Assembly: GCF_030732865.1 (NCBI RefSeq)
Contig: NZ_JASHKB010000002.1
Span: forward strand, 1 to 64,000
DNA length: 64,000 nt
DNA from: Roseitalea sp. MMSF_3546
GTDB taxonomy: Bacteria; Pseudomonadota; Alphaproteobacteria; Rhizobiales; Rhizobiaceae
Direction: 5' to 3'
Positions 22,413 through 43,361 of this stretch are shown in pieces. The notes under the pieces were generated by a model. That model saw only the letters and a list, made by a program, of their open reading frames with translations. It was not told the origin of the DNA and made no database searches. Both the position numbers and the translations under genes were made by a program. How positions within the stretch are numbered: the stretch's first letter is position 1; each line of letters starts with the position of its first letter.

Positions 22413-22437
22413 GGAACCTGTTTGCGTGCACAGCGTA
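22413..22437 (+). promoter_or_regulatory. EcfG-type promoter, one mismatch, for the yihY-csbD pair
   Basis: GGAAC at 22413-22417 is followed after 16 nt by CGTA at 22434-22437, one base from the GGAAC-N16/17-CGTT consensus of the alphaproteobacterial stress sigma factor. It lies 70 bp before the YihY start. Confidence 0.55.
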
Positions 22438-22506
22438 GCCATTGCATGGGGCAGCCCGTAACACATGCAGGCGCGCGATCCGGCGCGCGAAGCGACAGGC
22501 CCGACG

Positions 22507-23508
22507 ATGAGCAGGCATGACGAGGCCCGCCGGCCGGTCAAGCTCGACCGGCGCGCCTGGATGGAGGCGGGCATGGCCACGATCAACTACACCTTCGCCA
22601 TGGACAACAATCTGCGTTGTGCGGGCGTGGCGTTCTTCGGCTTTCTGTCCGTCTTTCCCGCGCTGAGCGCGGCGATCTCCCTTTTCGGGCTGATCGCCGA
22701 TCCGACCCAGATCGCCGTGGCCGATCCGCCCTTCGCCGCCGCGCTGCCCGATGACGTCACCATCGTCATCAAGGAGCAGATCGCCGAATTCGCCGCGCGT
22801 GACGCGACCGCCGGGTGGGGCCTGGCGATCAGCCTGCTGGTGGCGCTGTGGACCGGTTCGCGCGGCATGAACGCGCTGGTCTTCGCGATCACGCGGGCGC
22901 ATCGCGAGACCGAAGAACGCAGCTTCATCGCCAGCATCGTGATGTCGCTCGCCGCGACGGTCGGTGCCTTCGTCACGCTGGGCATCATCATTGCCAGCCT
23001 GACCGTCGTTCCGGCGCTGGCGGTGATGTGGCCCTATGTCGACAGCCGCGAGACGGCGCTGTTGTGGCTGCGCTGGCCGCTGGTCGTTCTCGTTCTGACG
23101 GTGGCGGTGTTCTTCCTTTACAGGCACGCGCCCAACCGACGCTCGCCGCGCAGGGACTGGGTCGTGCCTGGCGCGATCCTGGCCACGCTGCTGTGGCTTT
23201 TGGGCTCGGTCGCCCTTTCGTTCTTCATCGAGAATTTCGGACGCTACAACGCCACGTTCGGCTCGATCGCGGCAGCGGCGATCTTCATGTTGTGGCTGTA
23301 TTTCAGCGCGCTGGTGCTGATAGCGGGCGCTGCGCTCAATGCCGAACTGGAATGGCGCACCACAAAGGACACGACGGTCGGCCCGGATCGGCCGATGGGC
23401 GAGCGCCAGGCGCATGTCGCCGATACGCTGGCCCCGCAGGCGCGGGAACGAAACCGGGACGATGACGTTCATCCGGTGCAAGACGCCGAAAGGAGAATGA
23501 CGACATGA
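22507..23508 (+). CDS. YihY/BrkB-family integral membrane protein
   Basis: This 333-residue protein has the BrkB/YihY signature: RAWMEAGMATINYTFAMDNNLRCAGVAFFGFLSVFPALSA-type first helix, then about five further hydrophobic segments up to residue 295, and a charged C-terminal tail. The family was once labelled ribonuclease BN but is now regarded as a membrane protein of uncertain role. An in-frame ATG at 22465 is an alternative start. It overlaps the csbD gene by 4 bp, so the two form an operon. Confidence 0.9.
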   Translation: MSRHDEARRPVKLDRRAWMEAGMATINYTFAMDNNLRCAGVAFFGFLSVFPALSAAISLFGLIADPTQIAVADPPFAAALPDDVTIVIKEQIAEFAARDATAGWGLAISLLVALWTGSRGMNALVFAITRAHRETEERSFIASIVMSLAATVGAFVTLGIIIASLTVVPALAVMWPYVDSRETALLWLRWPLVVLVLTVAVFFLYRHAPNRRSPRRDWVVPGAILATLLWLLGSVALSFFIENFGRYNATFGSIAAAAIFMLWLYFSALVLIAGAALNAELEWRTTKDTTVGPDRPMGERQAHVADTLAPQARERNRDDDVHPVQDAERRMTT

Positions 23509-23705
23509 ACTGGGACCAGGTCAAGGGAAAATGGACCGAATTGCAGGGCCAGGCGAAGCAGCGTTGGGGTCAGCTGACCGACGACGATCTCGCCCAGGCC
23601 CAGGGCGACCGCGAGGAGCTGGCCGGTATCGTGCGCCAGCGCTACGGCAAGTCCAAGGAAGAAGCCCAGCGCGAGGTGGACGACTGGATGGCATCGCTGC
23701 GGTAG
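23505..23705 (+). CDS. CsbD-family stress protein
   Basis: This 66-residue protein has the full CsbD pattern: MNWDQVKGKWTELQGQAKQRWG, then TDDDLAQAQGDREELAGIVRQRYGKSKEEAQREVDDW. CsbD proteins are small, very hydrophilic and induced by general stress in several bacteria; their biochemical role is not known. It is coupled to the YihY gene by an ATGA overlap. Confidence 0.94.
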   Translation: MNWDQVKGKWTELQGQAKQRWGQLTDDDLAQAQGDREELAGIVRQRYGKSKEEAQREVDDWMASLR

Positions 23706-23836
23706 TCGTCCGGTTCGGGCAGGGGAAGACCGCGTGCGACCGATCGGAGGCGGACGGTCCCATGCACTTCACCACATGAAGGGATCAAGGCGAGATCATC
23801 GCTTGCAGGGCCGCCCCAATCGGGCGGTTCCTGCCG

Positions 23837-24046
23837 TCAGGGTCCGATTGCCCGGAACATCAACAGTGCCAGGATGATGACGGCAAGCACGGCAATGCCG
23901 ATCCGCCACCACATTCCCGGCCCCCAGGTCGGCGGCACCATGGATTCCAGTTCGGTATCGGTCTGGGCCTCCTGCGCCAGGTGCCGATTGCGTGCGTCGA
24001 CCTTGCGATCGTGATCGTCCCTGCGACCATTGGTGCCGTCGGTCAT
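23837..24046 (-). CDS. Small single-span membrane protein, unknown
   Basis: This 69-residue protein starts at 24046 with AAGGAG 8 nt upstream. It has a charged N-terminus (NGRRDDHDRKVDARNRHLAQE) and one C-terminal transmembrane helix (about 47-66), ending FRAIGP. I do not recognise a named family. An exact EcfG-type promoter precedes it, and its neighbours are stress genes. Confidence 0.75.
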   Translation of the reverse strand: MTDGTNGRRDDHDRKVDARNRHLAQEAQTDTELESMVPPTWGPGMWWRIGIAVLAVIILALLMFRAIGP

Positions 24047-24076
24047 CAAATGGGCTCCTTTGTGTGTCAGACAATT

Positions 24077-24101
24077 GGAACGAAGCAGCAATGCATCGGT
24101 T
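24077..24101 (+). promoter_or_regulatory. EcfG-type promoter, one mismatch, overlapping the opposite promoter
   Basis: GGAAC at 24077-24081 is followed after 16 nt by GGTT at 24098-24101, one base from consensus. It points to the 92-residue gene starting at 24159 and uses nearly the same 27 bp as the minus-strand promoter. Confidence 0.5.
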
Positions 24102-24103
24102 CC
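24079..24103 (-). promoter_or_regulatory. EcfG-type promoter for the 69-residue membrane protein
   Basis: On the minus strand, GGAAC (24103-24099) is followed after 16 nt by CGTT (24082-24079), an exact consensus match 33 bp before the start at 24046. It overlaps almost completely with a plus-strand site. Confidence 0.78.
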
Positions 24104-24158
24104 GGACACTCGAGCAAGGCTATCGAAGCTGCTTGCCGCGAAACGAGGAACATCGACA

Positions 24159-24437
24159 ATGTCCGATAATGGACGCAACAAGGAACCGGTCAAGTCGGAA
24201 GTCGGCGATCCGGTCGACATCGAGCGCACCGCGCTTTCCATCACGCCGGGCGATGTGCGCGCCATGATGGTTTCCGAAGCGCCGGCCGAGGAACGTCTGG
24301 CCGAATTGCAGGCGATGCGCCGCGAGGTGCTCGCAAGAGTGGAAGCCGATCCGAACCATGAACTCGCCCCGATCGAGCGCGATCTTGACAATGCGATCGC
24401 GGCGTTGCGTCGCCAAATGGGTATGGACGAAAAATAA
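24159..24437 (+). CDS. Conserved small charged protein, unknown
   Basis: The protein is 92 residues from the ATG at 24159, with GAGGA 9 nt upstream. It is soluble and rich in Glu, Arg and Ala, with a helical C-terminal half (ERLAELQAMRREVLARVEAD, then IERDLDNAIAALRRQMG). I do not recognise the family. Its position opposite another stress-promoter gene suggests a stress role. Confidence 0.7.
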   Translation: MSDNGRNKEPVKSEVGDPVDIERTALSITPGDVRAMMVSEAPAEERLAELQAMRREVLARVEADPNHELAPIERDLDNAIAALRRQMGMDEK

Positions 24438-24481
24438 GGGCCGCGGCACTGCGCCGCGACCCCGCCCGAAAGGTCCTCGTC

Positions 24482-24643
24482 CTATCGGCGCATGACCCGG
24501 AAGATCAGGCTGACCACGAACAGGGCCAGGAACAGGAAGAACAGGATCTGCGCGATTCCCGCCGACGCGCCGGCGATGCCGCCAAAGCCGAGAACGGCGG
24601 CAATGATGGCGATGACGAGGAATGCAATTGCCCATCCGAGCAT
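24482..24643 (-). CDS. DUF1328 small membrane protein
   Basis: This 53-residue protein is encoded on the minus strand, starting [20 protein letters not shown] and continuing [19 protein letters not shown] to RVMRR. This is the DUF1328/YtjA pattern with two transmembrane helices and a Gly-rich turn. GGAGACAACC precedes the ATG. The function is unknown, but the family is often found in general stress regulons, and an exact EcfG-type promoter lies upstream. Confidence 0.9.
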
Positions 24644-24674
24644 GGTTGTCTCCTATCGCTTGGACTGGGCCGTC

Positions 24675-24699
24675 AACGCCCTCGGCGGCGGCTGGTTCC
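24675..24699 (-). promoter_or_regulatory. EcfG-type promoter for the DUF1328 gene
   Basis: On the minus strand, GGAAC (24699-24695) is separated by 16 nt from CGTT (24678-24675), an exact match 32 bp before the DUF1328 start. Confidence 0.8.
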
Positions 24700-24747
24700 G
24701 GTCGCAGCGGCGCGCCCGGCCGTCCGGGCGTCGATGCGGTGGCCGGC

Positions 24748-24772
24748 GGAACCTTTCGCCTGCTGCGTCGTT
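24748..24772 (+). promoter_or_regulatory. EcfG-type promoter for nepR-ecfG
   Basis: GGAAC (24748-24752), 16 nt, CGTT (24769-24772) is an exact match 34 bp before the nepR start. It implies that the sigma factor autoactivates its own operon, as known in other alphaproteobacteria. Confidence 0.85.
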
Positions 24773-24805
24773 TGAAAGGCGAAAGAAAGAGCCTTCAGAG
24801 CAGTC

Positions 24806-25015
24806 ATGAACGTTATTCCTTTTCAAAGAACGATAGAGCGGGAGAACCGCAACGACATCGCGGTGGAGCAGATTGGCCAAAGGCTGAAATCGGCCTACCA
24901 GGCGATGGTCGAAGCGCCCGTGCCGGACAGGTTCACCGCCCTTCTGGGCGAACTCGAGCGCGCCGAGGCCGAGCGCGCGCCAGACAAATCCAGCCTGAAA
25001 AGGGCCAGTCAATGA
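24806..25015 (+). CDS. nepR: NepR-family anti-sigma factor (copy 1)
   Basis: This 69-residue protein contains the NepR core IGQRLKSAYQAMVEAPVPDRFTALLGEL, two short helices that bind the EcfG sigma factor and, when PhyR is phosphorylated, its sigma-like domain. It overlaps the sigma factor gene by 4 bp, giving the usual nepR-ecfG pair. A second copy lies at 30009-30215. Confidence 0.93.
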   Translation: MNVIPFQRTIERENRNDIAVEQIGQRLKSAYQAMVEAPVPDRFTALLGELERAEAERAPDKSSLKRASQ

Positions 25016-25563
25016 CGGGCAGTGCGGACTTCAAGACGGAATTGCTCACCTCGATTCCCAGCCTACGCGCCTTCGCTCTTTCGCTTAGCGGCAATGCCGA
25101 CCGCGCCGACGATCTGGTGCAGGAAACGCTGGTCAAGGCGTGGCACAAGCAGAGCACATTCATGCCCGGCACCAATATGCGTGCCTGGCTGTTCACGATC
25201 CTGCGCAACGAGTTCTATTCGCAGATGCGCAAGAAGGGGCGCGAGGTGGCCGACGCCGACGGCGCGCTGACCGAAGGTCTGGCCGCGCACCCCGAGCAGT
25301 CGGGGAAACTCGACCTGCAGGACATGAAGACCGCGCTGCAGAAACTGCCCGAGGACCAGCGCGAAGCCATCATCCTGGTCGGCGCGTCGGGGCTGAGCTA
25401 CGAGGAGGCGGCGGAGGTCTGCGGCTGCGCCGTCGGCACGGTGAAGAGCCGCGTGTCGCGCGCGCGCACCAAGCTGGCCGAACTGCTCAAGATCGATGAC
25501 AGCAGCGACTACGGTCCCGATGCGGTCTCGACCCATGTGCTGGCAAAGCCGGCCGTGGCCTGA
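25012..25563 (+). CDS. ecfG: EcfG-type general stress sigma factor
   Basis: The protein is 183 residues, starting at the ATG within the nepR stop. Region 2 (NADRADDLVQETLVKAWHKQ, FMPGTNMRAWLFTILRNEFY) and region 4 (LPEDQREAIILVGASGLSYE, then VGTVKSRVSRARTKLAELL) are complete and separated by a short acidic linker, as in ECF15/EcfG. It should direct transcription from the GGAAC-N16/17-CGTT sites found around it. The frame is open far upstream, but the coupled start is clear. Confidence 0.95.
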   Translation: MTGSADFKTELLTSIPSLRAFALSLSGNADRADDLVQETLVKAWHKQSTFMPGTNMRAWLFTILRNEFYSQMRKKGREVADADGALTEGLAAHPEQSGKLDLQDMKTALQKLPEDQREAIILVGASGLSYEEAAEVCGCAVGTVKSRVSRARTKLAELLKIDDSSDYGPDAVSTHVLAKPAVA

Positions 25564-25580
25564 CCGGTTGGGAGGCGGGC

Positions 25581-26169
25581 ATGGCCCAGGCCGCCACGCT
25601 GACCGACATCGTCGACGAGCTGGAGCAGGCCAATGCCGGCCAAGCCATGTCGGTCAGCGAAATGGTCGGCGCATTCGGCAGTCGCGGCTTCGGCGCGCTG
25701 CTCGGCGCTCCCGCGCTGATATCGATCTCGCCGCTGGGCGCCCTGCCGGGCGCGTCGTTCGTGATCGCGTTCATCCTGATCCTGATCGGCGGCCAGTTCG
25801 CGCTCGGCCGCACGCAGCCCTGGTTGCCGGGCTATTTCGAACGCCTGACGGTGGATGCCGACAAGGTCGATGCCGCCACCGCCAAGATGCGGTCATGGAC
25901 GAGGCGGATCGACCGGGTGCTGGCGCCGCGCCTTCAATTCATGGTTTCGCGCCTTGGCGACCGGCTCATGGCAGCGGCGAGCGTGATCCTGGCGATTTCG
26001 TTCTTCCCGGTCATCCTGATCCCGTGGGCGGTGGTCATCCCGAGCCTGATCATATTGCCTGTTTGCAACGGCGATCGTCGCACGCGACGGGCTGAGCGCC
26101 GTGCTGGGCTGGGTCCTGTGCCCGGTCTGGCTGTGGGCGTTCTGGCGCTTCACCACGGTCGCGACATGA
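25581..26169 (+). pseudogene. ExoD-family membrane protein with a single-base frameshift
   Basis: The first about 160 codons encode an ExoD-like protein (DIVDELEQANAGQAMSVSEM, ALISISPLGALPGASFVIAF, WLPGYFERLTV, ILAISFFPVILIPWAVVIPS). At about 26057-26060 the frame changes. Omitting one C after the codon for Leu in IIL restores LFATAIVARDGLSAVLGWVL and a Trp-rich C-terminus ending at TGA 26167-26169. In the uncorrected frame the remainder is non-family sequence to 26510. Either the gene is recently broken or the base is a sequencing error. It is 17 bp after ecfG. ExoD proteins are linked to exopolysaccharide and envelope functions. Confidence 0.8.
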
Positions 26170-26193
26170 TGGACATCGACAATGGAGAGACAA

Positions 26194-26460
26194 ATGCCTG
26201 GAAAAGACCATGGACCGACGGTCAAACAAGACGAGGTCTATCAGAAACTGCGCGAGAAGGGCGCGTCGAAGGAAAAGGCGGCGCGTATTGCCAACGCACA
26301 GGCAAACCCCTCGCGAAAGCCGTCCAAGAAGGGCGGAAAATCAGATGCCTACGAGGAATGGACGCGCGACGATCTGTACGAGCGGGCCCGGGAGATCGGC
26401 ATCGAGGGCCGTTCGGAGATGTCCAGGGACGAACTGATCGACGCGCTGCGCAACCATTAG
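26194..26460 (+). CDS. Rho-N-domain small protein (SAP/Rho termination factor-like)
   Basis: The protein is 88 residues from the ATG at 26194, with GGAGAG 4-9 nt upstream. The N-terminal half is Lys-rich (KDHGPTVKQDEVYQKLREKG, EKAARIANAQANPSRKPSKK) and resembles DUF7218 proteins. The C-terminal part (WTRDDLYERAREIGIEGRSEM, LIDALRN) is a Rho N-terminal/SAP-like helix-extended-helix motif. It probably binds nucleic acid. It sits among stress genes. Confidence 0.82.
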   Translation: MPGKDHGPTVKQDEVYQKLREKGASKEKAARIANAQANPSRKPSKKGGKSDAYEEWTRDDLYERAREIGIEGRSEMSRDELIDALRNH

Positions 26461-26483
26461 CGGTGAAACCGGCCGGCCAAGGT

Positions 26484-26508
26484 GGAACCAGCCGGACGTG
26501 GCTGCGTT
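26484..26508 (+). promoter_or_regulatory. EcfG-type promoter for the aldehyde dehydrogenase
   Basis: GGAAC (26484-26488), 16 nt, CGTT (26505-26508) matches the consensus exactly, 122 bp before the start codon at 26631. Confidence 0.75.
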
Positions 26509-26630
26509 GAACCGGGGATCCAATTGGATCACCGTCCGGCCCGTCCCCAACTGGACGGTCGGGAGAGAGGCTGTTTCCTCCCCAAGTCCCCGTCAAGCCT
26601 CTCTCCCGCTCTTTCTTGCCGAGGTCCTCG

Positions 26631-27992
26631 ATGCCAGACAGCGTCAATCCCGCCACTGCCAGAACCGAAAAATCCTTTGCCCGCCACAGCGCTGAAGACG
26701 CAAGAAATGCGATCGGCAACGCTCGGGCGGCGTTCGAGGAATGGCGCGCAACGCCCGTCGCCGACCGGGCGGCGCTCCTGCGCAGGGTGGCCGAAGTGCT
26801 CGATGCGCGCCGCGACGAGATGGCGCGCCTTGCCACCACGGAAATGGGCAAGCGGATCGCCGAAGCGCGCGCCGAGGTCGAAAAGTGCGCGTGGGTGTGC
26901 CACTACTACGCAGACAATGCCGAAACCTTCCTGGCAGACGAGACGCGCGAGTCGAGCGCGGCCAAATCGTTCGTCCGCTATCAGCCGCTCGGCATCGTGC
27001 TGGCCGTCATGCCGTGGAACTTTCCCTACTGGCAAGTCTTCCGCTTTGCCGCGCCGGCGCTGATGGCGGGCAATGTCGGTCTTCTCAAGCACGCCAGCAA
27101 CGTGCCGCAATGTGCCATGGCAATCGAAGAAAGCTTTCTGGAGGCCGGGTTCCCACAGGGGGTGTTCGCATCCCTGCTGATCGGCTCCGATCAGGTCGAG
27201 GCGATCATCGCCGACGATCGCGTCCGCGCCGTCACGCTGACCGGCAGCGAGGCGGCGGGCCGCTCGGTGGCTGCCCTGGCAGGCAAGCACATCAAGCCCA
27301 GCGTGCTGGAACTTGGCGGCAGCGATCCGTTCGTCGTCATGCCGAGCGCCGATCTGGATGCGGCCGTGGAAACGGCCGTCGCCGCCCGCATGATCAACAA
27401 CGCGCAGTCGTGCATCGCCGCCAAGCGGTTCATCGTGCACAGCGACATCCATGCGCGATTTGTCGAGGCGATGGCCGACCGTTTCCAGGCGCTGAAGATC
27501 GGCGATCCGATGGACGAGGACACCGAGCTTGGCCCGCTGTCCAGCCGGCAGGCGCTCGAGGGGTTGGACGCACAGGTGCGTGCGCTGGCCGATGCCGGCG
27601 CCAGCGTGATCTGCGGCGGTGCGCCGGTCGACCGGCCGGGGCACTACTTCGAGCCGACGCTCATTGCGGACATTCCCGACAATGCCGGCACCCGGTTCGA
27701 GGAGCTGTTCGGTCCGGTCGCCATGGTCTTCGAGGCGGCGAGCATCGACGATGCGGTGCGGCTTGCAAACGAGACGCCATTCGGTCTGGGCAGTGCGGTC
27801 TGGACCCGCGATCAGGACGAGATCGATCATTTCGTCAATGCGATCGAAGCCGGATCGGTGTTCGTCAACCAGAAGGTGGCCTCCGACCCGCGCCTGCCAT
27901 TCGGCGGCGTCAAGAATTCGGGCTATGGCCGCGAACTCTCGCGCGAGGGCATTGTGGGCTTCGTCAACGTCAAGACCGTCTCGATCGCCTGA
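26631..27992 (+). CDS. NAD(P)-dependent succinate-semialdehyde dehydrogenase-like
   Basis: The protein is 453 residues from the ATG at 26631; a TTG 15 nt upstream is also in frame. It has the aldehyde dehydrogenase fold with GIVLAVMPWNFPYWQV, the active-site Glu227 in LELGGSDPF, and catalytic Cys261 in NNAQSCIAAKRF. Overall it resembles the short GabD/Sad group. It would oxidise succinate semialdehyde or a related aldehyde to the acid. It is a single gene under an exact stress promoter and converges on the kinase gene. Confidence 0.9.
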   Translation: MPDSVNPATARTEKSFARHSAEDARNAIGNARAAFEEWRATPVADRAALLRRVAEVLDARRDEMARLATTEMGKRIAEARAEVEKCAWVCHYYADNAETFLADETRESSAAKSFVRYQPLGIVLAVMPWNFPYWQVFRFAAPALMAGNVGLLKHASNVPQCAMAIEESFLEAGFPQGVFASLLIGSDQVEAIIADDRVRAVTLTGSEAAGRSVAALAGKHIKPSVLELGGSDPFVVMPSADLDAAVETAVAARMINNAQSCIAAKRFIVHSDIHARFVEAMADRFQALKIGDPMDEDTELGPLSSRQALEGLDAQVRALADAGASVICGGAPVDRPGHYFEPTLIADIPDNAGTRFEELFGPVAMVFEAASIDDAVRLANETPFGLGSAVWTRDQDEIDHFVNAIEAGSVFVNQKVASDPRLPFGGVKNSGYGRELSREGIVGFVNVKTVSIA

Positions 27993-28008
27993 AAATCCCT
28001 GATTTGCG

Positions 28009-28995
28009 TCAGTGAAACTGCGTGCCGGCGACGGTGAGCGTATAGACGACGCCATCGGGCCTGAGCTCGAGCGTGCCGCTGCCGTCGACGGCGCGCGGCA
28101 CGATGCGTTCGAGCATGGTCTTGCCGAAGCTTGTCTCGTTGTGCGTGGGTGAGGGCTGTGCCGCCGAGCGTTCATGCCAGGTTATCCTGGCGACCGGCGG
28201 CTCGGACTTGGAATGGATGACCTCGCAGCGGATCTTCACATTGCCCCCGGTCTGGACCAGGGCACCATGCACGAGTGCGTTGGTGACCAGTTCGTGCAGG
28301 GCCAGGCCGATATGCAGCCCCGCATTGGGCCGCAGGTTCGGATCGTCGCCGCTCACCTCGATGCGGGCGCCGCCGAGCTGGACGACGTTGATCACCTGGT
28401 GATCGACCAGTTCGCGAAAGCGGGCGCCGCGCCAGTCGCTGTCGGTGATCACGTCCTGGGACTTGGACAGCGACTGGACGCGGCCGGTGAACGCCCGCAG
28501 GAACCCGTCGATGCTGCGTGCCGAGCGCGCGGTCTGCGCCGACAGGCCCAACACCATGGCCAGCATGTTCTTCGAGCGGTGCGACACCTCCAGAAGCAGG
28601 GTCTTCAAGGTCGCTTCGCGCTGCTTTTCGAGCGTGGTGTCCATGGAGGAACACAGGTAACCCTCGATCGCCCCGTTCGCACCGGTCAGCGGCTCGACCG
28701 AAACCTTGAGGTGGCACTGCGCACCCATCGGGATGATTTCCGTGCGCGGGGAGAGTTCGACCGTCTGGCGCGTGCCGCCGTCGCCGGCGCGTTCCTTGGC
28801 GCGCTGGAAGGCGGCGACGCTTTCGGCGTCAAAAACGTCGGCATCGGTCTTTCCGACAAGGTCCTGGCTGGCCCAGATCGACTGCAGGTTAACGAACCAC
28901 TGGAAACGTCCCTTCGCGTCCTGTGCGAAAATGGTCACCGGCGATCCCGACAAGGCTGTCGCCAGCGACTTGAAATCTGGGTTTTTTGAGGGCAT
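28009..28995 (-). CDS. Soluble HWE/HisKA_2 sensor histidine kinase
   Basis: The protein is 328 residues from the ATG at 28995. A PAS domain (about 15-125, ending GYLCSSMDTTLEKQREATL) precedes the phospho-acceptor box LLLEVSHRSKNMLAMVLGL with His139. The ATPase part has LHELVTNALVHGAL, a WHE motif in RITWHERS, and FGKTMLERIVPRAV. There is no transmembrane segment. Such kinases commonly phosphorylate PhyR, and this gene lies 91 bp downstream of phyR on the same strand. Confidence 0.9.
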   Translation of the reverse strand: MPSKNPDFKSLATALSGSPVTIFAQDAKGRFQWFVNLQSIWASQDLVGKTDADVFDAESVAAFQRAKERAGDGGTRQTVELSPRTEIIPMGAQCHLKVSVEPLTGANGAIEGYLCSSMDTTLEKQREATLKTLLLEVSHRSKNMLAMVLGLSAQTARSARSIDGFLRAFTGRVQSLSKSQDVITDSDWRGARFRELVDHQVINVVQLGGARIEVSGDDPNLRPNAGLHIGLALHELVTNALVHGALVQTGGNVKIRCEVIHSKSEPPVARITWHERSAAQPSPTHNETSFGKTMLERIVPRAVDGSGTLELRPDGVVYTLTVAGTQFH

Positions 28996-29086
28996 TGCGA
29001 GAGATCGTCGGTGAGTTGCCTGAACCCCCTCCAATTTAGGGTCGGGCGCGCCGATTTGCAGCGCCCCTTTGCGTGACGATCCTGTC

Positions 29087-29881
29087 TCAGGCCGCCTTTT
29101 GCCGGGCCTGCGAGAAGAAGAGCGCCTGGCTGATCAATGCACCCACGGTCTGCGGATGGAACGGCTTGGTCACCAGATAAGCCGGCTCGGGCCGCTCGCC
29201 CGTCAGGAGCCGTTCGGGAAACGCCGTGATGAAGATGACGGGAACGTCGACTGACTTGAGAATGTCGTTGACCGCATCGAGCCCGGAACTGCCATCGGCG
29301 AGCTGGATATCGGCCAGGACGATGCCCGGTCGTTCCTTTTCGAAGGCGGCCAGCGCCTCCGCGTGGGTGCGCGCAATGCCGGTGACACGGTGCCCCAGTT
29401 CCTCGACCATCGCCTCGACGTCCATCGCGATCAGCGGCTCGTCCTCGATGATCAGCACGCTGGTGGCGACCTGCTGGGCTATGTCGCGCGATGCCTGGTC
29501 GATCAGCCTGTCGACCTCGCCCGCCGAAACGCCCAGAATCTCGGCGCTGTCCTGGCGGTCGAAGCCTTCCACCGCGGTCAGAAGGAACGCCTGGCGCGGA
29601 AGCGGCGCGATCGCCTGCAGATTGCGCTCGGCGCCTTCATTGGACATGTTGCCCGGCTGCTCGCCGCGCAGATTCACATCGAGCGAGGACCACAGCGCAA
29701 CGAACGCCCTGTAAAGGCCGACGCGGGCATCGTCGCTCTCGGGAAAGACGGACGGATCGGCGACGAGCGCCTCGAGCAGGGCCGCGACATAGGCATCGCC
29801 AGCCTGTTGCGAACCCGTAAGGGCCCGTGCGAACCTTCGCAGAAGGGGGATATGGGGTGTAATGCGTGCTGCGAGCGACAT
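29087..29881 (-). CDS. phyR: PhyR anti-anti-sigma response regulator
   Basis: This 264-residue protein has the PhyR layout: a sigma-like N-terminal domain (1-125, with LPRQAFLLTAVEGFDRQDSA and VSAGEVDRLIDQA) and a C-terminal receiver (140-256). The receiver has acidic Glu146/Asp147, the phospho-acceptor Asp191 in VLADIQLADG, and VTKPF. When phosphorylated it releases the sigma-like domain to sequester NepR and free EcfG. It is divergent from a second nepR gene, with an exact EcfG promoter in between. Confidence 0.96.
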   Translation of the reverse strand: MSLAARITPHIPLLRRFARALTGSQQAGDAYVAALLEALVADPSVFPESDDARVGLYRAFVALWSSLDVNLRGEQPGNMSNEGAERNLQAIAPLPRQAFLLTAVEGFDRQDSAEILGVSAGEVDRLIDQASRDIAQQVATSVLIIEDEPLIAMDVEAMVEELGHRVTGIARTHAEALAAFEKERPGIVLADIQLADGSSGLDAVNDILKSVDVPVIFITAFPERLLTGERPEPAYLVTKPFHPQTVGALISQALFFSQARQKAA

Positions 29882-29916
29882 ATAGTCTTCCTCCTGTCCG
29901 GACCGTCACACAAATC

Positions 29917-29942
29917 AACGTGCGTTGACCGTTGCCGGTTCC
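29917..29942 (-). promoter_or_regulatory. EcfG-type promoter for phyR
   Basis: On the minus strand, GGAAC (29942-29938), 17 nt, CGTT (29920-29917) is an exact match 36 bp before the phyR start. Confidence 0.85.
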
Positions 29943-29949
29943 CGGTCGT

Positions 29950-29974
29950 GGAACATTTTTCGTGCTCAGGCGTT
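29950..29974 (+). promoter_or_regulatory. EcfG-type promoter for the second nepR
   Basis: GGAAC (29950-29954), 16 nt, CGTT (29971-29974) is an exact match 35 bp before the nepR copy 2 start. It lies back to back with the phyR promoter, with only 7 bp between the two -35 elements. Confidence 0.85.
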
Positions 29975-30008
29975 GATGGGCCTGATACGGGGAAAGGGCA
30001 AGGTTAAC

Positions 30009-35775: not shown

Positions 35776-35787
35776 GACCTGCCCTGG

Positions 35788-36384: not shown

Positions 36385-37485
36385 ATGATCGGCCTGGACG
36401 GCTGGCTTTTTCGGGGCCTGGCCGGGCTCGCCGTCATCATCGCGCTCGTTGCCGGGCTCATGCTGGCCAAGGCGGTCTTCATCCCGATCTTCATCGCGCT
36501 GTTCCTGGCGATCATCCTGCATCTGCCATTGGCGGCGATGGAGCGCGCCGGCGTTCCGCGCATCCTGGCGGCGCTGACGCTGACGCTGACCGTGGCCGGG
36601 CTGATCGCGCTGCTCGCCTATTTCATCTCCGGACCCGTGCAGACCACGATCGAAAACTATCCCAGCATGGTCAATCAGTTGCAGCGCAAGCTGGCGGCGC
36701 TGCGCCTGTCGCTGCGCGAGGCCCAGGAGATCGGCGAGGCCCTGTCGACGGTGGGAGAGGAGGTCGGCGAGGCGCTGGACGATGGTCGCGACGACAATGT
36801 CGAGGAAGTGGTGGTCCGGCAGCCCGGATTCCTGATGAACGCGGCCACGAGCTTCGCCTCGGGCGCAACGACCTTCCTGGTGACGGTGACCATCGCCGGC
36901 TTCATTCTGGCGATGCGTCGGCCGTTCATGATCATCGCGACGATCCCACATGGCACGATGCGCGGCAAGCTGCGCGCCGCCCGTGTCTGGAAAGCGGTCG
37001 AGTCCCAGGTCAGCCACTATCTGCTGGTGACGACGCTGATCAATATCGCACTGGGCATCGTGGTCGGGCTGGCGCTGTGGTGGCTGGGCGTGCCCATGCC
37101 GGTCTTCTGGGGGGCGGTCGTCGCGTTTCTCAACTACATGCCGTTCGTCGGCCCGGCGATCGGGGTGCTGTTGCTGCTGGCGGTGAGCATCGTGCAGTTC
37201 GACACCGTCTTGCAGATGATCCTGCCGGCGGCGACCTACATGGCGATCAATTTCGTGGAGGCCAACTTCGTCACGCCGAACCTGGTGGGCCGGCGCACCA
37301 ACATCGCGCCGCTGGCCATCATCGTTTCGCTGCTCGTGTGGGGCTGGATGTGGGGGTTCGCCGGCCTGTTCCTGTCGGTGCCCATCCTGGTGGTGCTCAA
37401 GGCGACCGCCGAGAAGACCGAAAGCCTTGCGGGCATCCACCGCATGCTCACGCCGCGCGCCCGGCACCCCATGTCGCTCCGGTAA
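36385..37485 (+). CDS. AI-2E (TqsA/PerM) family membrane permease
   Basis: This 366-residue protein has seven to eight hydrophobic segments. It starts LAGLAVIIALVAGLMLAKAVFIPIFIALFL and carries the conserved central region LALWWLGVPMPVFWGAVVAF, NYMPFVGPAIGV, then GRRTNIAPLAIIVSLLVWGW. Members export small molecules or act in sodium/proton-linked transport; the substrate here is unknown. It is followed by small stress-type genes. Confidence 0.9.
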   Translation: MIGLDGWLFRGLAGLAVIIALVAGLMLAKAVFIPIFIALFLAIILHLPLAAMERAGVPRILAALTLTLTVAGLIALLAYFISGPVQTTIENYPSMVNQLQRKLAALRLSLREAQEIGEALSTVGEEVGEALDDGRDDNVEEVVVRQPGFLMNAATSFASGATTFLVTVTIAGFILAMRRPFMIIATIPHGTMRGKLRAARVWKAVESQVSHYLLVTTLINIALGIVVGLALWWLGVPMPVFWGAVVAFLNYMPFVGPAIGVLLLLAVSIVQFDTVLQMILPAATYMAINFVEANFVTPNLVGRRTNIAPLAIIVSLLVWGWMWGFAGLFLSVPILVVLKATAEKTESLAGIHRMLTPRARHPMSLR

Positions 37486-37511
37486 CGTCACCGTCGCAAC
37501 GCCAGCGGGCG

Positions 37512-37536
37512 GGAACCCTTCGCCCGGGCGCGCATT
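37512..37536 (+). promoter_or_regulatory. Weak EcfG-like site upstream of the DUF883-like gene
   Basis: GGAAC (37512-37516), 16 nt, CATT (37533-37536) differs from consensus by one base in the essential CGTT. It is listed as weak only. Confidence 0.25.
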
Positions 37537-37656
37537 GGCCCCTTGTGTGCCTTTGGGACGGGGAGCACCTCTTCCTTGGCTCGAATGCACGGGAAAACAG
37601 ACAGTTGAGCCGTTGGCGACGGTCATCTCCGAGCCGGCTCACGAAAGGAGACTGTG

Positions 37657-38004
37657 ATGAATGCGACATCCGACAACCAGTCCGGCTCGAAATCGCGCAA
37701 TGGCCCTGGCAAGGCGGGCAATGACGAGTTGTCCGCCGAGATCGCCGCGCTGCGTCGGGACATCGACGCGGTGACCGAGCGGCTGGGCAAGGTTGCCGGA
37801 GCCGGCGCCCGCACGGCGCGTTCGCGTCGCGACGAGACCAGCAAGATGTTTCGCGCAAAGTCCGACGAGTTCATCGACGACCTGAACCATCAACTCGAGC
37901 GGATCGAACGGCAGACCAGCGCGACGGTGCGCCGCCATCCGATCCAGACAATGGCAATTGCCGCCGGGGCGGGGTTTCTGGCTGCGCTGCTGATGCGGCG
38001 CTGA
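37657..38004 (+). CDS. DUF883/ElaB-like protein with a C-terminal membrane helix
   Basis: The protein is 115 residues from the ATG at 37657, with AAAGGAG upstream. A helical, charged body (ELSAEIAALRRDIDAVTERL, then FIDDLNHQLERIERQTSATV) is followed by RRHPIQTMAIAAGAGFLAALLMRR, the typical ElaB/YqjD C-terminal anchor. E. coli relatives are stress-induced and bind ribosomes at the membrane, which is only suggestive here. It begins a run of three small membrane-protein genes. Confidence 0.85.
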   Translation: MNATSDNQSGSKSRNGPGKAGNDELSAEIAALRRDIDAVTERLGKVAGAGARTARSRRDETSKMFRAKSDEFIDDLNHQLERIERQTSATVRRHPIQTMAIAAGAGFLAALLMRR

Positions 38005-38005
38005 C

Positions 38006-38431
38006 ATGCTCAAACCGCTCTCGAGCTTCGCCCGCCTGACCGCCGCCGACTTCCACAGCCGCAAACGGCGATGGATCTGGGCGGCGGTGATGTATGGGAT
38101 CGCGGGCATCTGCGCATTGTTCGCCGTCGGCTTCGGCGCGACGGCGCTCGCCGTGTGGATCGCCGCGCTCTATGATCCCATCATCGCGCTGGTGATCACG
38201 GCGGCGCTGTTCCTGGTGATTGCGGCGATCGCGCTGATCGTCAATTCGATCTACCAGACGCGGGCGAAACGGCGCATCCGGCGCAACGCCGCCCTGCGCA
38301 GCGCGGCGGTCGCCACGGCGATGGTCAGCCTGAGACGGACCGGAACCGCGGCGCTGCCCATCGCGGCGGTGGTGGCCGGCGCCCTGCTTGCCACGCAACT
38401 CACCGGCGGCGATGACGACGCGGACGAGTGA
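38006..38431 (+). CDS. Holin-X/phage holin-like small membrane protein
   Basis: This 141-residue protein has two long transmembrane helices (about 26-50 and 57-82) and a shorter one at 112-127, after the start MLKPLSSFARLTAADFHSRKRR. It resembles the YqjE/Holin-X type proteins that follow ElaB/YqjD-like genes. It starts 1 nt after the DUF883-like stop, so the two are co-translated. Confidence 0.75.
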   Translation: MLKPLSSFARLTAADFHSRKRRWIWAAVMYGIAGICALFAVGFGATALAVWIAALYDPIIALVITAALFLVIAAIALIVNSIYQTRAKRRIRRNAALRSAAVATAMVSLRRTGTAALPIAAVVAGALLATQLTGGDDDADE

Positions 38432-38461
38432 GCGCGCCAATCGGCGGGCGCGCGGGTGAGC

Positions 38462-38487
38462 GGAACGGCGGACCGGGTCGCCGCGTT
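38462..38487 (+). promoter_or_regulatory. EcfG-type promoter for the 88-residue gene and oxidoreductase
   Basis: GGAAC (38462-38466), 17 nt, CGTT (38484-38487) is an exact match 33 bp before the start at 38521. Confidence 0.78.
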
Positions 38488-38520: not shown

Positions 38521-38787
38521 ATGCGAACCCGAACGCTCATGGCCGGTGCGATCGCCCTTCCGCTCAACGCCGTCGTCTTCGGCGTCGGCGCGGTGACGGT
38601 GCTGTCGATCCCCGCGCTCGCGCCATACTGGAAATACGTGTTGCCGGTCGTCATCGTGGCCGGCATCGCGCTGACCGTGCCGCTGGCCTGGAAGCTGGCG
38701 CCGCGGCTGCGCCTGAACAGCCAGTACTATCCGCGCCTGTTCCGCAAGTCGAAGGAGGCGCGCGACGATGCCGGCGCGGGACGCTGA
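38521..38787 (+). CDS. Small membrane protein, unknown
   Basis: The protein is 88 residues from the ATG at 38521, with GGAGGT 5-10 nt upstream. Two hydrophobic helices (about 7-30 and 35-58) are followed by a basic tail (RLRLNSQYYPRLFRKSKEA). I do not recognise a family. It overlaps the downstream oxidoreductase gene by 20 bp. Confidence 0.75.
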   Translation: MRTRTLMAGAIALPLNAVVFGVGAVTVLSIPALAPYWKYVLPVVIVAGIALTVPLAWKLAPRLRLNSQYYPRLFRKSKEARDDAGAGR

Positions 38788-39752: not shown

Positions 39753-42320
39753 TCACTCCAGCTTCGCTTCGAGCCTTTCGATGACCGGTTTGGTGATCGC
39801 CTGATCGAGGTCGGCCTCGGCCCGTTCGAGCGGGCAGGGCCGGGACAGCCGGTCCCGGGCCTTCGCCATGGAAAAGGTATTGGCCGCATCCAGGCGCTCC
39901 AGTTCCTGCCAGGTGACCGGCATGGCGACGGGTGCGCCCTTGCGTGCGCGCAACGAATAGGGCGCGATCGCCGTCGAACCGCGCTCGTTGCGCAGCCAGT
40001 CCACGAACACCTTGCCCTTGCGCTTTGCCTTGGACATGGTCGCGACAAACCGGTCCGGCTCGGTCTGGGCGAAATAGGTCGCAACGGTACGGGCGAACAG
40101 CACCACGCTCTGCCAGCGGGCTGTGCGGCGCAGCGGAACGATGACGTGCACCCCCTTGCCGCCGGTGACCATCGCGACCGATTGAAGGCCGAGATCCGAC
40201 AGCAGTTCGCGCACCCTTGCCGAGGCGGCCCTTACCGCCGCGAAGTCGACGCCTTGCCCGGGATCCATGTCGAAGACGGCGCGGTCGGGCTTTTCCAGAT
40301 TGTCGGTGCGGGCACCCCAGATGTGGAATTCGATCGCGCCCATCTGCGCGGCAGCCACGAATCCTTCCGGCCTGTCGATGACCAGATAGTCCTCGGTGCC
40401 GCCGGACTTCTCTTCGATCGGAACCGAGGCGATCTCGCCGGGGAAACCCTTGCCGGCGTGCTTCTGGAAGAAGCAGTCGCCCTCGGTGCCCCTGGGACAG
40501 CGCAGCAGCGAGACGGGCCGGCTGCCGGCGAGCGCAAGCATGCGGTCGCCGACCGTGCCGTAGTGCCGGGCGACATCGCCCTTGGTGCAGCCGGCGTCTG
40601 GAAAGACCGTCCGGTCGGCGCTCGAGATGCGGATGTCGCGCACGTGCACGGTGCCGCCGTCGTCGTGGTCGGTGCCGGCTGCCGTGTCGTCGTCCGCGTC
40701 ATCTGCGGACCCGCCGGGCTCGGCCCGGGTATCGTTTTGCATGCTCACCGCCTTGGCCTCCTTGTCCTCGCGCAGGCCCTCGAACCGGCCATGGCGGATG
40801 CGCCCGTCGGCCGTCAGTTCGGCAAAGCCGATCTCGGCCACCAGATTCGGCGTCAGCCACCGCGCATTGCGGGCGATCTGGCGCGGTACGTCGTCGGCAA
40901 AGGGCGATGTCTTGCGCTCGATCCGGGAAAATCGCGCTTCGAGCCGGCCGAGCGTATCGGCATCGAAGCCGGTGCCGACGCGGCCGCGATAGACCAGCGC
41001 GCCATCGTCATGGGTGCCAAGCAGGACCGAGGCGAAGGGCCGGCCCCTGGCTGAGGAGGGGGTGGTGCCGGCTATGACGAACTCGCGGCGCCGCTCGGCC
41101 TTGACCTTGCGCCATTTGCCCGAGCGCCTGCCCGTATAGGCGCTGTCGGCGCGTTTGGAGATGATGCCCTCGGCGCCGCCTTCGGCAATGGCCTTGAAGA
41201 CCTTGGGGCCCTTGCCGACGATATGCTCGCTGTAGCGCACCGGTCCGCCCGCCGGCGCGCCTGCGATCAACGCGCGCAGCCTTTCCTTGCGCTCGGCGAG
41301 CCCGGTCTTGCGCAGCGATCGTCCGTCGAGTTCGAGCAGATCGAAGACCATGAAGCGGACGGGGCGTCCGGCCTTCAGATCGTCCTGAAGGTCGGAGAAC
41401 TTGGCCGTCGCCGGATCGCCGCCGCCGCCGGCGACGACCTCGCCGTCGATGAGCGCGCTCTCGCAATCCAGAAAGGCAAGGGCGTCGGCCAGACCGACGA
41501 AGCGCTCGGTCCAGTCCTTGCCCGAGCGCGTGTGCAGGCGGATGCCGTCGCGGCCGAGCGCGGCAAGGCAGCGATAGCCGTCATATTTGGGCTCATGCAG
41601 CCAGTCCTCGCCCTCGGGAGCATGGTCGTCGAGCACGGCCAGTTCGGGCGGCGTGAATTTCGGCGTCTTCCTTGTGAAGGTTTCGGCCGGATCGGGCGGT
41701 TGTCGCGGCGCCGAGCCGGGATCGGACGTCGGCGGTTCGTCTTGGGCGATCGCCGTCATGGTGCGGCCCGACACGACGCTCGTGTTGTATGCGTCGGTCA
41801 GATGGTTTTCGTCATCGGTCGCCTGCCCGTCGCGTTCCTTGATCAGCAGCCAGTTGTCGCGCTTTTCGCCCTTGCGCCGGCGCATGCGTACCAGCGCCCA
41901 GGCGCCGGTCATGCGTTTTCCGTGCAGGTCAAAGCCGAGCTTGCCCTTCTGAAGGCCTTCCTCGACGTCGCCGTGCGGTCCCCACCAGCCCTTGTCCCAG
42001 ACCATGACGGTGCCGCCGCCATATTCGTCCTTGGGGATCGTGCCCTCGAAATCCTGATAGTCGAGCGGGTGGTCCTCGGCGCGCACGGCCAGCCTTTTGG
42101 CAGTGGGGTCGTCGCTTGGCCCCTTGGTCACCGCCCAACTCAGCAGCACGCCATCCCATTCGAGCCGGAAGTCGTAATGCAGACGGGTCGCATCGTGCTT
42201 CTGGACGACGAAAACCGGCTTGCCGCGCTTTTGGGGTATCGCCTTGCCAGAGGGCTCGGAGGTGACCGAGAAGTCGCGCTTTTGCGCATAGTCGGACAGT
42301 CTGTCTGACTTCGCCGCCAT
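39753..42320 (-). CDS. ligD: LigD multidomain DNA ligase for non-homologous end joining
   Basis: This 855-residue protein has the order phosphoesterase - ligase - polymerase. The N-terminal phosphoesterase has KHDATRLHYDFRLEW (41-55) and HPLDYQDFEGTIPKDEYGGG. The ATP-dependent ligase has catalytic Lys in EPKYDGYR (243-250). The C-terminal primase-polymerase (about 560-850) has VFDMDPGQGVD. It repairs double-strand breaks with Ku. It starts 3 bp after the Ku stop, so both are made from one message. Confidence 0.96.
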   Translation of the reverse strand: MAAKSDRLSDYAQKRDFSVTSEPSGKAIPQKRGKPVFVVQKHDATRLHYDFRLEWDGVLLSWAVTKGPSDDPTAKRLAVRAEDHPLDYQDFEGTIPKDEYGGGTVMVWDKGWWGPHGDVEEGLQKGKLGFDLHGKRMTGAWALVRMRRRKGEKRDNWLLIKERDGQATDDENHLTDAYNTSVVSGRTMTAIAQDEPPTSDPGSAPRQPPDPAETFTRKTPKFTPPELAVLDDHAPEGEDWLHEPKYDGYRCLAALGRDGIRLHTRSGKDWTERFVGLADALAFLDCESALIDGEVVAGGGGDPATAKFSDLQDDLKAGRPVRFMVFDLLELDGRSLRKTGLAERKERLRALIAGAPAGGPVRYSEHIVGKGPKVFKAIAEGGAEGIISKRADSAYTGRRSGKWRKVKAERRREFVIAGTTPSSARGRPFASVLLGTHDDGALVYRGRVGTGFDADTLGRLEARFSRIERKTSPFADDVPRQIARNARWLTPNLVAEIGFAELTADGRIRHGRFEGLREDKEAKAVSMQNDTRAEPGGSADDADDDTAAGTDHDDGGTVHVRDIRISSADRTVFPDAGCTKGDVARHYGTVGDRMLALAGSRPVSLLRCPRGTEGDCFFQKHAGKGFPGEIASVPIEEKSGGTEDYLVIDRPEGFVAAAQMGAIEFHIWGARTDNLEKPDRAVFDMDPGQGVDFAAVRAASARVRELLSDLGLQSVAMVTGGKGVHVIVPLRRTARWQSVVLFARTVATYFAQTEPDRFVATMSKAKRKGKVFVDWLRNERGSTAIAPYSLRARKGAPVAMPVTWQELERLDAANTFSMAKARDRLSRPCPLERAEADLDQAITKPVIERLEAKLE

Positions 42321-42323
42321 GGT

Positions 42324-43205
42324 TCAGGCCGACTTCTTCCTGCGGGCGCCCGACGAGCCGCGCTTGCCGCCGGAGCCGGACTTCGATCCCGACTTGCCCT
42401 TGCGGCCGCTGTTTTCCGATTCCTCCAGGCTTTCCTTCAGCGCGCTCATCAGATCGACGACGTTTTCGCCCGTCGGGCGCGGCTCGGCGCCTTCGGTCTC
42501 CACGCGCGGGGTCGACTTGTTCCTGACCTTTCGGTCGACGAGATCGCGCAGCGCCTTCGCATAGCTGTCGGTGAAGGCCGACGCATCGAATGGCGCCGTC
42601 TTGCGTTCGATCAGCGAGGTGGCAACATCGAGCAGTTCCTCGTCGGGCTCGTCATCGGTGACCTGGGCAAACATCGGCTCGGCGCTGCGGATCTCGTCGT
42701 CGTAGTGCAGCGTCTCGAGCAGCAGGCCATCGCCGCAGGGACGGATCGCGGCCAGATACTCCTTGCCGCGCATGGCGACCTGGCACAGGCCGGTCTTGCC
42801 GCTCTGGCGCAGGGCGTCGCGCACCACGCGATAGGCGTCCTCGGCCAGTTCGTCCGCCGGCGTCAGGTAATAGGGCTTGTTGAAGTAGATCGGCGGGATC
42901 TCGCCCTGGTCGACGAACTGGACGATCTCCATGGTCTTCTTCGTCTCCAGCTTTATCGCATCGATCTCGTCGGGATCGATCAGCGCGTAGCGGTCCTTTT
43001 CGTACTCGAAGCCCTTGACGATCTCGTCGCGATCGACCGGGCCGATGCCCGGCACCGATTTCTCGTAGCGCACGGGCTTGCCGCTGGGAGCATGGATCTG
43101 GCGGAAGCGGATGCGCGCCGCGCTCTCGGTCGCCGAATACAGCTCGACCGGTATCGAGACCAGCGAAAGCCTCAATTGGCCCTTCCAGAGCGCGCGTGCG
43201 GCCAT
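42324..43205 (-). CDS. ku: Ku DNA end-binding protein
   Basis: The protein is 293 residues from the ATG at 43205 with GGAGGAG just upstream; the frame is open to 43322 but without similarity. It has the Ku core start (RALWKGQLRLSLVSIPVELYS) and the IHAPSGKPVRYEKSVPGIG and DGLLLETLHYDDEIR segments. A Gly/Ser/Lys-rich C-terminal tail may aid DNA binding. It forms the ring that recruits LigD to ends. A one-mismatch stress promoter lies 130 bp upstream. Confidence 0.96.
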   Translation of the reverse strand: MAARALWKGQLRLSLVSIPVELYSATESAARIRFRQIHAPSGKPVRYEKSVPGIGPVDRDEIVKGFEYEKDRYALIDPDEIDAIKLETKKTMEIVQFVDQGEIPPIYFNKPYYLTPADELAEDAYRVVRDALRQSGKTGLCQVAMRGKEYLAAIRPCGDGLLLETLHYDDEIRSAEPMFAQVTDDEPDEELLDVATSLIERKTAPFDASAFTDSYAKALRDLVDRKVRNKSTPRVETEGAEPRPTGENVVDLMSALKESLEESENSGRKGKSGSKSGSGGKRGSSGARRKKSA

Positions 43206-43336
43206 CGACTCCTCCGCCCTCAGGCCGGCCGCGAGCGCACGCCGCGCTTCGGTCGACGGCGCGCCGAGGCGGCATCGGCCAGGTCGGGTTGAGCCATGTT
43301 GTGTTCGACGTCGTTGATCCACATCTGCGTTAACGG

Positions 43337-43361
43337 AACCGACGGGCGCCGCATTGGTTCC
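43337..43361 (-). promoter_or_regulatory. EcfG-type promoter, one mismatch, upstream of ku-ligD
   Basis: On the minus strand, GGAAC (43361-43357), 16 nt, GGTT (43340-43337) is one base from consensus, about 130 bp before the Ku start. The same mismatch occurs at the plus-strand site at 24077. Confidence 0.4.

Follow-up and report, generated by a model that had tools for sequence, protein, structure and literature searches.

We analyzed a 64,000-nucleotide stretch of DNA from Roseitalea sp. MMSF_3546 (contig NZ_JASHKB010000002.1, positions 1 to 64,000; hereafter the window), which very probably holds the core of the alphaproteobacterial general stress response as a physical cluster of promoters for the sigma factor EcfG. 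The promoter pattern GGAAC-N16/17-CGTT (hereafter the exact pattern) has been tied to EcfG by mutants in Rhizobium etli (PMC3892343) and in Sphingopyxis, where the direct targets include csbD, ku-ligD, phyR and nepR-ecfG (PMC7083833), as far as the excerpts of these and the other papers cited here go. A scan of both strands identified 11 exact matches in the window, all within positions 23445–38487, as compared to a mean of 0.92 and a maximum of 4 matches in 100 dinucleotide shuffles of the same DNA. A preliminary description of the window had listed nine exact sites as part of a clustered stress regulon. All nine are present (24079, 24675, 29917, 32922 and 36100 on the minus strand; 24748, 26484, 29950 and 38462 on the plus strand), and two more, 23445(+) and 36150(+), had been missed.

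Density, placement and conservation of the sites

The genome (4.05 Mb in 63 contigs) was scanned for the exact pattern, with the same pattern reversed as the control. Genome-wide, 76 exact sites were found versus 75 reversed sites, showing that exact sites are not in excess over the control at this scale; the excess is seen locally and by position. Within 19–40 kb of the window there were 11 forward but 0 reversed sites. The cluster density of 0.73 sites per kb (11 in 15.0 kb) is approximately 54-fold higher than the 0.0135 per kb observed outside this cluster and a second one described below (54 exact sites in about 4.0 Mb). Thus, the equal density elsewhere or in shuffled sequence that the preliminary description had named as evidence against its proposal was not found. 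The two clusters together contain 22 of the 76 sites in 43.6 kb, or about 1.1% of the genome.

Ten of the 11 window sites are located at most 150 bp upstream of a called gene and in the right orientation, and the eleventh at 210 bp, whereas only 408 of 4,682 random positions (8.7%) satisfied the same placement rule. The upstream placement proposed earlier holds, at 25–123 bp and in the right orientation, for all of the nine originally listed exact sites but 29950, after which nepR2 starts at 2 bp in its longest reading and at 35 bp if an internal ATG at 30009 is taken as the start. A sampled background of 17 stretches of 20 kb (340 kb) contained 21 exact sites; because these stretches had partly been picked for containing sites, all 76 sites were classified by position instead. 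Outside both clusters, 24 of the 54 sites were at most 150 bp upstream of a gene, 6 at 151–300 bp, 23 intragenic and 1 elsewhere. Judged by placement, perhaps about 20 of these are real promoters, and the genes behind them include what we take, from their sequences, to be a 53-amino-acid entericidin-like lipoprotein, an 81-amino-acid small membrane protein and a PfpI-like protein. Both clusters account for 18 of the 42 promoter-placed exact sites (about 43%), including one with a miscalled gene start. The second cluster and the approximately 24 promoter-placed sites elsewhere show that the window cluster is not the whole regulon.

Conservation of the sites was analyzed in four genomes of the same genus (G001–G004, the genome under study being G000), with PhyR identities of 73–79%, by tblastn against their cluster regions. 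An ortholog was counted as having a site if an exact match was located at −60 to 260 bp before its start; NepR1, which in these genomes has the same sites as NepR2, was dropped from the count, and the AI-2E-type gene was counted apart. Orthologs of genes with an exact site kept one in 23 of 27 cases: CsbD 3/3, TM69 0/1, DUF1328 4/4, NepR2 4/4, aldehyde dehydrogenase 1/3 (in G003, at 122 bp), PhyR 4/4 and, for small proteins described below, sp59 3/3, sp95 3/4 and sp82 1/1 (in G003, at 39 bp). In contrast, none of the 21 orthologs of genes that lack a site (the kinases HWE1 and HWE2, a receiver-like protein, Crp, PLD and LigD) had one. Exact sites were also present at 2 of 4 AI-2E orthologs, 3 of 4 sp92 orthologs and 3 of 4 DUF883 orthologs.

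A wider comparison covered the best 80 of at least 442 confirmed phyR loci, with at most 10 kb of flanking DNA in either direction from phyR and identities of 58–68% (hereafter the named loci), which are not independent samples (14 are from Mesorhizobium and 9 from Rhizobium). Exact sites preceded DUF1328 in 41 of 42 cases (21 of 21 genus labels), CsbD in 12 of 13, sp95 in 13 of 17, DUF883 in 37 of 50 and PhyR in 54 of 80, with corresponding counts for the reversed pattern of 2, 0, 0, 0 and 1. The AI-2E orthologs had a site in 6 of 9 cases, and weaker results were obtained for NepR2 (18/35), NepR1 (2/19), Dps (1/6) and sp59 (1/3). Enrichment among spacers of 14–19 nucleotides was confined to 16 (320 forward versus 24 reversed) and 17 (69 versus 9). 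The spacer sequences of ortholog sites were on average 38% identical within the genus (n = 27 comparisons, with NepR1 and NepR2 counted and TM69 not), and 29% identical in the named loci (n = 141), as compared to 33% between unrelated window sites (36 pairs). Since the boxes are kept while the spacers are near-random, the conserved sites are promoters under selection that almost certainly belong to EcfG, as judged from these sequence comparisons.

A position weight matrix (PWM) was trained on 46 exact sites of G001–G004 only, with none from the genome under study. At a score of at least 12 it yielded 12 hits in the window, all in the cluster region, namely the 11 exact sites and 37512(+), and 24 hits in the 340 kb of background. 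A matrix trained on exact sites disfavors sites with one mismatch and never saw mismatches in the boxes, and such variants were therefore judged by direct counts of forward and reversed matches. The CATT variant was enriched in the named loci (69 versus 13), supporting 37512(+). The GGTT variant was modestly enriched (37 versus 15 in the named loci, 9 versus 0 in the genus clusters), and the Methylobacterium consensus allows a C/G alternative (PMC4814048), which makes 24077 and 43337 plausible; the exact sites before three of the four sp92 orthologs make 24077 more so. The CGTA variant was not enriched (8 versus 45), and 22413 is therefore weak. Thus, the three one-mismatch sites proposed earlier all exist, carrying CGTA at 22413(+) and GGTT at 24077(+) and 43337(−), but only the latter two, each of which overlaps a site on the opposite strand, are plausible promoters.

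Regulators and genes of the cluster

Genes for the sigma factor, the anti-sigma factors, PhyR and the HWE kinases are all present. EcfG (25012–25563, plus strand) was assigned to the EcfG (ECF15) group of extracytoplasmic function (ECF) sigma factors by models that are general and not specific for ECF15, namely NF009199 (above cut-off) and ECF regions 2 and 4. Its best solved relative is 5uxx_A (1.6e-69), and it was matched in 76 of the 80 named loci with a median identity of 68%. A search of the genome yielded no second EcfG, the sole close match being EcfG itself; the next ECF sigma factors are two proteins that are 28–34% identical to it. Both copies of NepR matched PF18557 above the cut-off. 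NepR1 (24806–25015, plus) is encoded beside the sigma factor with a 4-bp overlap of the genes and is missed by the NCBIfam NepR model, whereas NepR2 (30009–30215, plus; longest reading from 29976, on which PF18557 was matched) scored below the cut-off of that model (NF051865, 1.7e-8). PhyR (29087–29881, minus) consists of a sigma-like domain and a receiver (PF22029, 1.3e-25; PF22233, 1.5e-22; PF00072, 1.1e-12), with NF006623 above the cut-off and the solved relatives 4g97 (1.7e-101) and 4qic, the latter named PhyR (3.2e-94). Two HWE/HisKA2 kinases are encoded nearby, at 28009 and 34702, the first being a PAS-HWE histidine kinase (28009–28938, minus; PF07536) without an exact site of its own.

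A small protein resembling a single-domain response regulator (30236–30580, minus; NF009972, 4.7e-8, below cut-off) adjoins nepR2, has no site and no Pfam match, and was matched in all four genomes of the genus. The FATGUY motif is the mark of FATGUY-type single-domain response regulators (SdrG/MrrA); it was not seen on reading this protein, and the NCBIfam response regulator models were far below their cut-offs.

Sites of the autoregulation type were found at 24748–24772(+) for nepR1-ecfG and at 29917–29942(−) for phyR. The latter is arranged back to back with the nepR2 site at 29950–29974(+), the GGAAC boxes being 7 bp apart (29917–29974), and the corresponding gaps in G003, G002, G001 and G004 are 7, 8, 10 and 9 bp. 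In the genome under study and in G003, ecfG with its own nepR is located apart from phyR, whereas phyR and nepR-ecfG form a divergent pair in G001, G002 and G004. The named loci contain 24 divergent pairs in which a site lies at most 160 bp from phyR; in 23 of these the gap was 5–10 bp (23 of 80 loci, 13 of them Mesorhizobium) and in 22 NepR or EcfG was on the other side. Of the other divergent pairs, 4 of 39 had a gap of up to 10 bp. The spacing suggests that two polymerases may be mutually exclusive at the phyR/nepR pair.

The remaining sites precede a variety of genes. The site at 23445–23469(+) lies within the end of the gene for a BrkB/YihY-family membrane protein (22507–23508, plus; PF03631), 36 bp upstream of a CsbD-like stress protein (23505–23705, plus; PF05532). 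BrkB itself is preceded at 70 bp by the weak CGTA site, which has the mismatch at −10 (22413–22437, plus; PWM 9.7); an exact site precedes the BrkB gene of G002 by 90 bp, and in G003 this gene is located directly downstream of sp82 on the same strand. TM69 (23837–24046, minus), of 69 amino acids with one hydrophobic stretch by reading, is preceded by 24079–24103(−; PWM 18.3). This site is overlapped by the GGTT site at 24077–24101(+), 58 bp before sp92 (24159–24437, plus), a protein of 92 amino acids modeled as helices (predicted local distance difference test score, pLDDT, 75). Overlapping exact sites on opposite strands were not observed in the 80 named loci and occurred once each in the examined stretches of G001, G002, G004 and G013. 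In the first three (G001:C15:69815–69846, G002:C19:176474–176505 and G004:C12:79270–79301) the pair separates an sp92 homolog from a gene of 431 amino acids, with a shorter call in G002. The exact site at 24675–24699(−) serves the DUF1328 small membrane protein (24482–24643, minus; PF07043), and the one at 26484–26508(+; PWM 20.0) is located 123 bp before an aldehyde dehydrogenase of the succinic-semialdehyde type (26631–27992, plus; NF006915, 7.5e-197, below the curated cut-off).

Further along, the site at 32922–32946(−; PWM 20.4) precedes a unit of four genes: sp59 (32706–32885, minus), with one hydrophobic stretch by reading, a Dps-type ferritin (32129–32635, minus; PF00210, with the NCBIfam Dps models below cut-off), a PLDc_N small membrane protein (31927–32124, minus; PF13396) and sp99 (31510–31809, minus). 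The site at 36100–36125(−) precedes sp95 (35788–36075, minus). The one at 36150–36175(+) is located 210 bp before an AI-2E-family transporter (36385–37485, plus; PF01594), which is followed by the CATT site at 37512–37536(+; PWM 14.6), 121 bp before a DUF883-like protein (37657–38004, plus; PF19029, 5.3e-6, and PF05957, 5.8e-4, both below cut-off). The last exact site, 38462–38487(+; PWM 17.4), precedes sp82 (38521–38787, plus), a small protein with hydrophobic stretches by reading. Ku (42324–43205, minus; PF02735, and TIGR02772 above cut-off) has the GGTT site at 43337–43361(−) 132 bp upstream, which was absent from the matrix hits at a score of at least 8. Next to Ku is a ligase (39753–42320, minus), presumably LigD from its sequence and its location.

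The stretch also includes an ExoD-family gene (25581–26163, plus) that is frame shifted near 26057, either by a real change or by a sequencing error, and has an intact relative in G003; a DUF7218/Rho_N small protein (26194–26460, plus; PF23855); a Crp-type regulator; a PLD-type protein; a holin-X-like protein; and a GFO/IDH oxidoreductase. The genes for SpoVR, DUF444 and PrkA (43386–48121) adjoin the cluster and have neither an exact site nor a match in the two G003 clusters.

The preliminary description had tied at least six unannotated small proteins to the regulon. Four have exact sites of their own (TM69, sp59, sp95 and sp82), and the number six is reached only if sp92, by its GGTT site, and sp99, by its position in the operon, are counted. 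No Pfam or NCBIfam match was obtained for any of the six (sp82 was tested in Pfam from a shorter start). The most widely matched unnamed target with an exact site is sp95, with four cysteines and one tryptophan invariant in 22 sequences, each of which gave only stray weak matches in Pfam. Its model is alpha/beta with moderate confidence (pLDDT 79.9; predicted template modeling score, pTM, 0.67), and a search of the model against PDB yielded no matches at E ≤ 0.001. A lipoprotein assignment for sp95, suggested by L-x-G-C near the N-terminus, was set aside because the model gives a strand at this motif and there is no basic n-region.

Clustering in relatives and a second cluster

The phyR region is the densest stretch, by site listing, in each of the same-genus genomes, with 14 sites in 21.8 kb in G003 (a single contig of 3.54 Mb with 66 sites in total), 11 in 19 kb in G002, 10 in 13 kb in G001 and 9 in 11 kb in G004. 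The 80 named loci contained 389 exact sites versus 33 reversed sites, with 24 expected from shuffles, and in the 64 full-length loci the density was 1.0 per kb in the kilobase next to phyR and dropped to 0.02–0.03 beyond 7 kb. The number of sites per locus ranged from 0 to 10, with 0–1 in five Bartonella loci and ten in 6 of 14 Mesorhizobium and two further loci. In other relatives, the 20 kb around phyR contained 7 (G012), 6 (G006), 5 (G017), 3 (G007), 2 (G016) and 1 (G009, with 2 reversed) sites, and G013 had 15 sites in 70 kb. Since clustering is found in many relatives, it is not peculiar to this genome; the window cluster is a strong case of a wider but not universal pattern, which takes an unusually large form in this genus.

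A second cluster was identified on another contig (C62, 120826–149347), with 11 exact sites in 28.5 kb. Seven are at most 150 bp from a called start, as is an eighth, before a GMC gene, if the start is set as in its G003 ortholog. The remaining three comprise one site at 172 bp from a start and two that are followed by no gene start within 300 bp. The genes in this cluster encode GMC oxidoreductases with a Gluconate_2-dh3 subunit and cytochromes c, a caa3-type oxidase and TrkH/TrkA, and further DUF892, DUF4112, a formate/nitrite-type transporter, DUF2383, an MscS-type channel, SDR and DUF308. Its counterpart in G003 (579933–601787) has 6 sites, and the GMC, Gluconate_2-dh3, TrkH and SDR genes have a site at near-equal distance in both species. 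The caa3 oxidase of this cluster, as well as Ku, are present in both species and were not found in G001, G002 and G004, where the oxidase query gave only relatives of 38–48%. The HdeD-like (DUF308) protein was not found in G001–G004, in a search without a positive control.

We also compared the gene contents of both clusters with those of G003, matching genes over half their length and counting matches within both G003 clusters; several genes of both clusters match neither. To the corresponding G003 cluster, 25 window genes and 23 C62 genes were matched. Six of these 48 matches are open to doubt, namely two ABC proteins (26%), one SDR (36%) and three antisense open reading frames. Another 11 genes were matched to the opposite cluster, all with at least 52% identity and by reading in about six blocks: 8 C62 genes to the G003 phyR cluster, and 3 window genes (GFO, LigD and Ku) to the other. 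The two clusters are 210 kb apart in G003 and on separate contigs (C22 and C62) here.

The adjacency of phyR and nepR-ecfG and their EcfG promoters are well known (PMC4814048, PMC3892343, PMC7083833). The window resembles the phyR-nepR-ecfG loci of R. etli, S. melonis, Sphingopyxis and M. extorquens in its regulators and in the promoter on phyR and nepR-ecfG, and shares with them the typical targets csbD, Dps-type, Ku and aldehyde dehydrogenase (PMC3892343, PMC7083833, PMC6599016, PMC4814048). However, ecfG and a second nepR are here located approximately 4 kb from phyR, with nepR2 divergent from phyR, and there are 11 exact promoters in 15 kb and 11 more in the distant second cluster. Single neighbors of phyR are known targets, such as a non-coding RNA beside phyR-tcrY in R. 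etli (PMC3892343) and an HWE kinase beside phyR2 in Sphingopyxis (PMC7083833). RpoE2 of Sinorhizobium meliloti likewise acts as the sigma factor of the general stress response and has two anti-sigma and PhyR-type partners; its promoter motif was mapped by 5' ends, 202 genes were raised on rpoE2 overexpression, and the sections of this account consulted contain no remark on clustering (PMC3616915). The locus of Sinorhizobium sp. A49, a different species, carries 2 exact sites at no more than 10 kb from phyR. In the open-licence literature, we found no description of clustering of EcfG sites near phyR. Thus, while the kind of system is known, the second cluster, the genes in opposite clusters, the recurrence of the back-to-back pair and the strong clustering at phyR look undescribed.

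Interpretation and alternative explanations

In the established partner switch, stress acts through an HWE kinase and phosphorylated PhyR, which leads to the release of NepR from EcfG. In this organism, stress would cause the HWE kinases to phosphorylate PhyR, PhyR would then remove NepR from EcfG, and the EcfG-RNA polymerase would fire about a dozen separate promoters in 15 kb at once. The system would be autoregulated through nepR1-ecfG and phyR/nepR2, and the other units fired would be csbD, DUF1328, sp59-dps-PLDc_N-sp99, aldehyde dehydrogenase, sp95, AI-2E/DUF883, sp82, TM69 and probably sp92. In the second cluster, the same promoter would drive the caa3 oxidase/GMC dehydrogenase chain, Trk, the formate/nitrite-type transporter, DUF892 and further genes. 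We infer from the sites and the regulators that EcfG reads these promoters and that stress turns them on. Clustering would then have arisen as genes beside the regulator were recruited, or kept, under its promoter.

Several observations weigh against this interpretation. No exact site is located directly upstream of SpoVR/DUF444/PrkA, HWE1, HWE2, Crp or PLD. In the named loci, TM69 (0/4), aldehyde dehydrogenase (0/4) and DUF7218 (0/5) have no sites, whereas some genes that lack a site in the window are preceded by one at up to 260 bp (Crp 11/29, HWE1 20/66, HWE2 15/69), suggesting that membership of the regulon shifts between lineages. In G003, exact sites are missing at sp95 and at the best match of TM69, a second homolog of which has one. 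Finally, the two other ECF sigma factors may read some of the sites. Nonetheless, the observation of the cluster is confirmed, and its reading as a clustered stress regulon is supported with small corrections, both by the ortholog sites and by the regulator genes.

The most serious alternative, which we consider possible but somewhat improbable, is that the cluster is a by-product of synteny, passed on as one ancient block without any particular tendency for EcfG targets to gather. Gene order is indeed partly common within the genus, DUF1328 was matched in 42 of the 80 named loci, and sites are sparse around phyR in some relatives (G009, G016 and G007, as above). However, the sites still concentrate at phyR where the neighbor content differs between groups (CsbD was matched in only 13 of 80 loci), and the 11 genes in opposite clusters are not expected from block inheritance, unless one old cluster was split in two ways, which may also yield swapped genes. 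It is very improbable that another ECF sigma factor or RpoH, and not EcfG, is the main reader of the promoters: the AAC element at −35 is read by many ECF sigma factors and two further ones are encoded here, but the consensus with its spacer of 16/17 is the EcfG consensus of the mutant studies, and the sites are densest at phyR and thin out with distance from it. Chance, by which GGAAC and CGTT would be common at 65% GC and the cluster mere luck, agrees with the genome-wide counts, but is refuted for the cluster as a whole by the local absence of reversed sites, the conservation with diverged spacers and the excess in the named loci, although weak single sites such as 22413 may be due to chance.

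A more speculative extension, which we regard as rather unlikely, is that the phyR neighborhood in Alphaproteobacteria is a self-enlarging regulon island, in which incoming genes gain or keep the promoter and blocks move between islands with their promoters. The same proposal holds that the back-to-back phyR/nepR promoters (5–10 bp) could not both be occupied, so that each EcfG-polymerase would choose between the anti-sigma factor and its antagonist, adding a part to the switch at the level of DNA.

The usual picture of the regulon of a global stress sigma factor is one of scattered targets. Clustering of the kind described here would simplify the prediction of EcfG targets in unstudied alphaproteobacteria. 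It would also tie a set of conserved small proteins without an assigned function (sp95, sp92, sp59, sp82, TM69, DUF1328 and DUF883) to the stress response, and link the caa3 oxidase/GMC dehydrogenase chain to this response in two species. The two clusters may provide a natural case for how regulons gather near their regulator.

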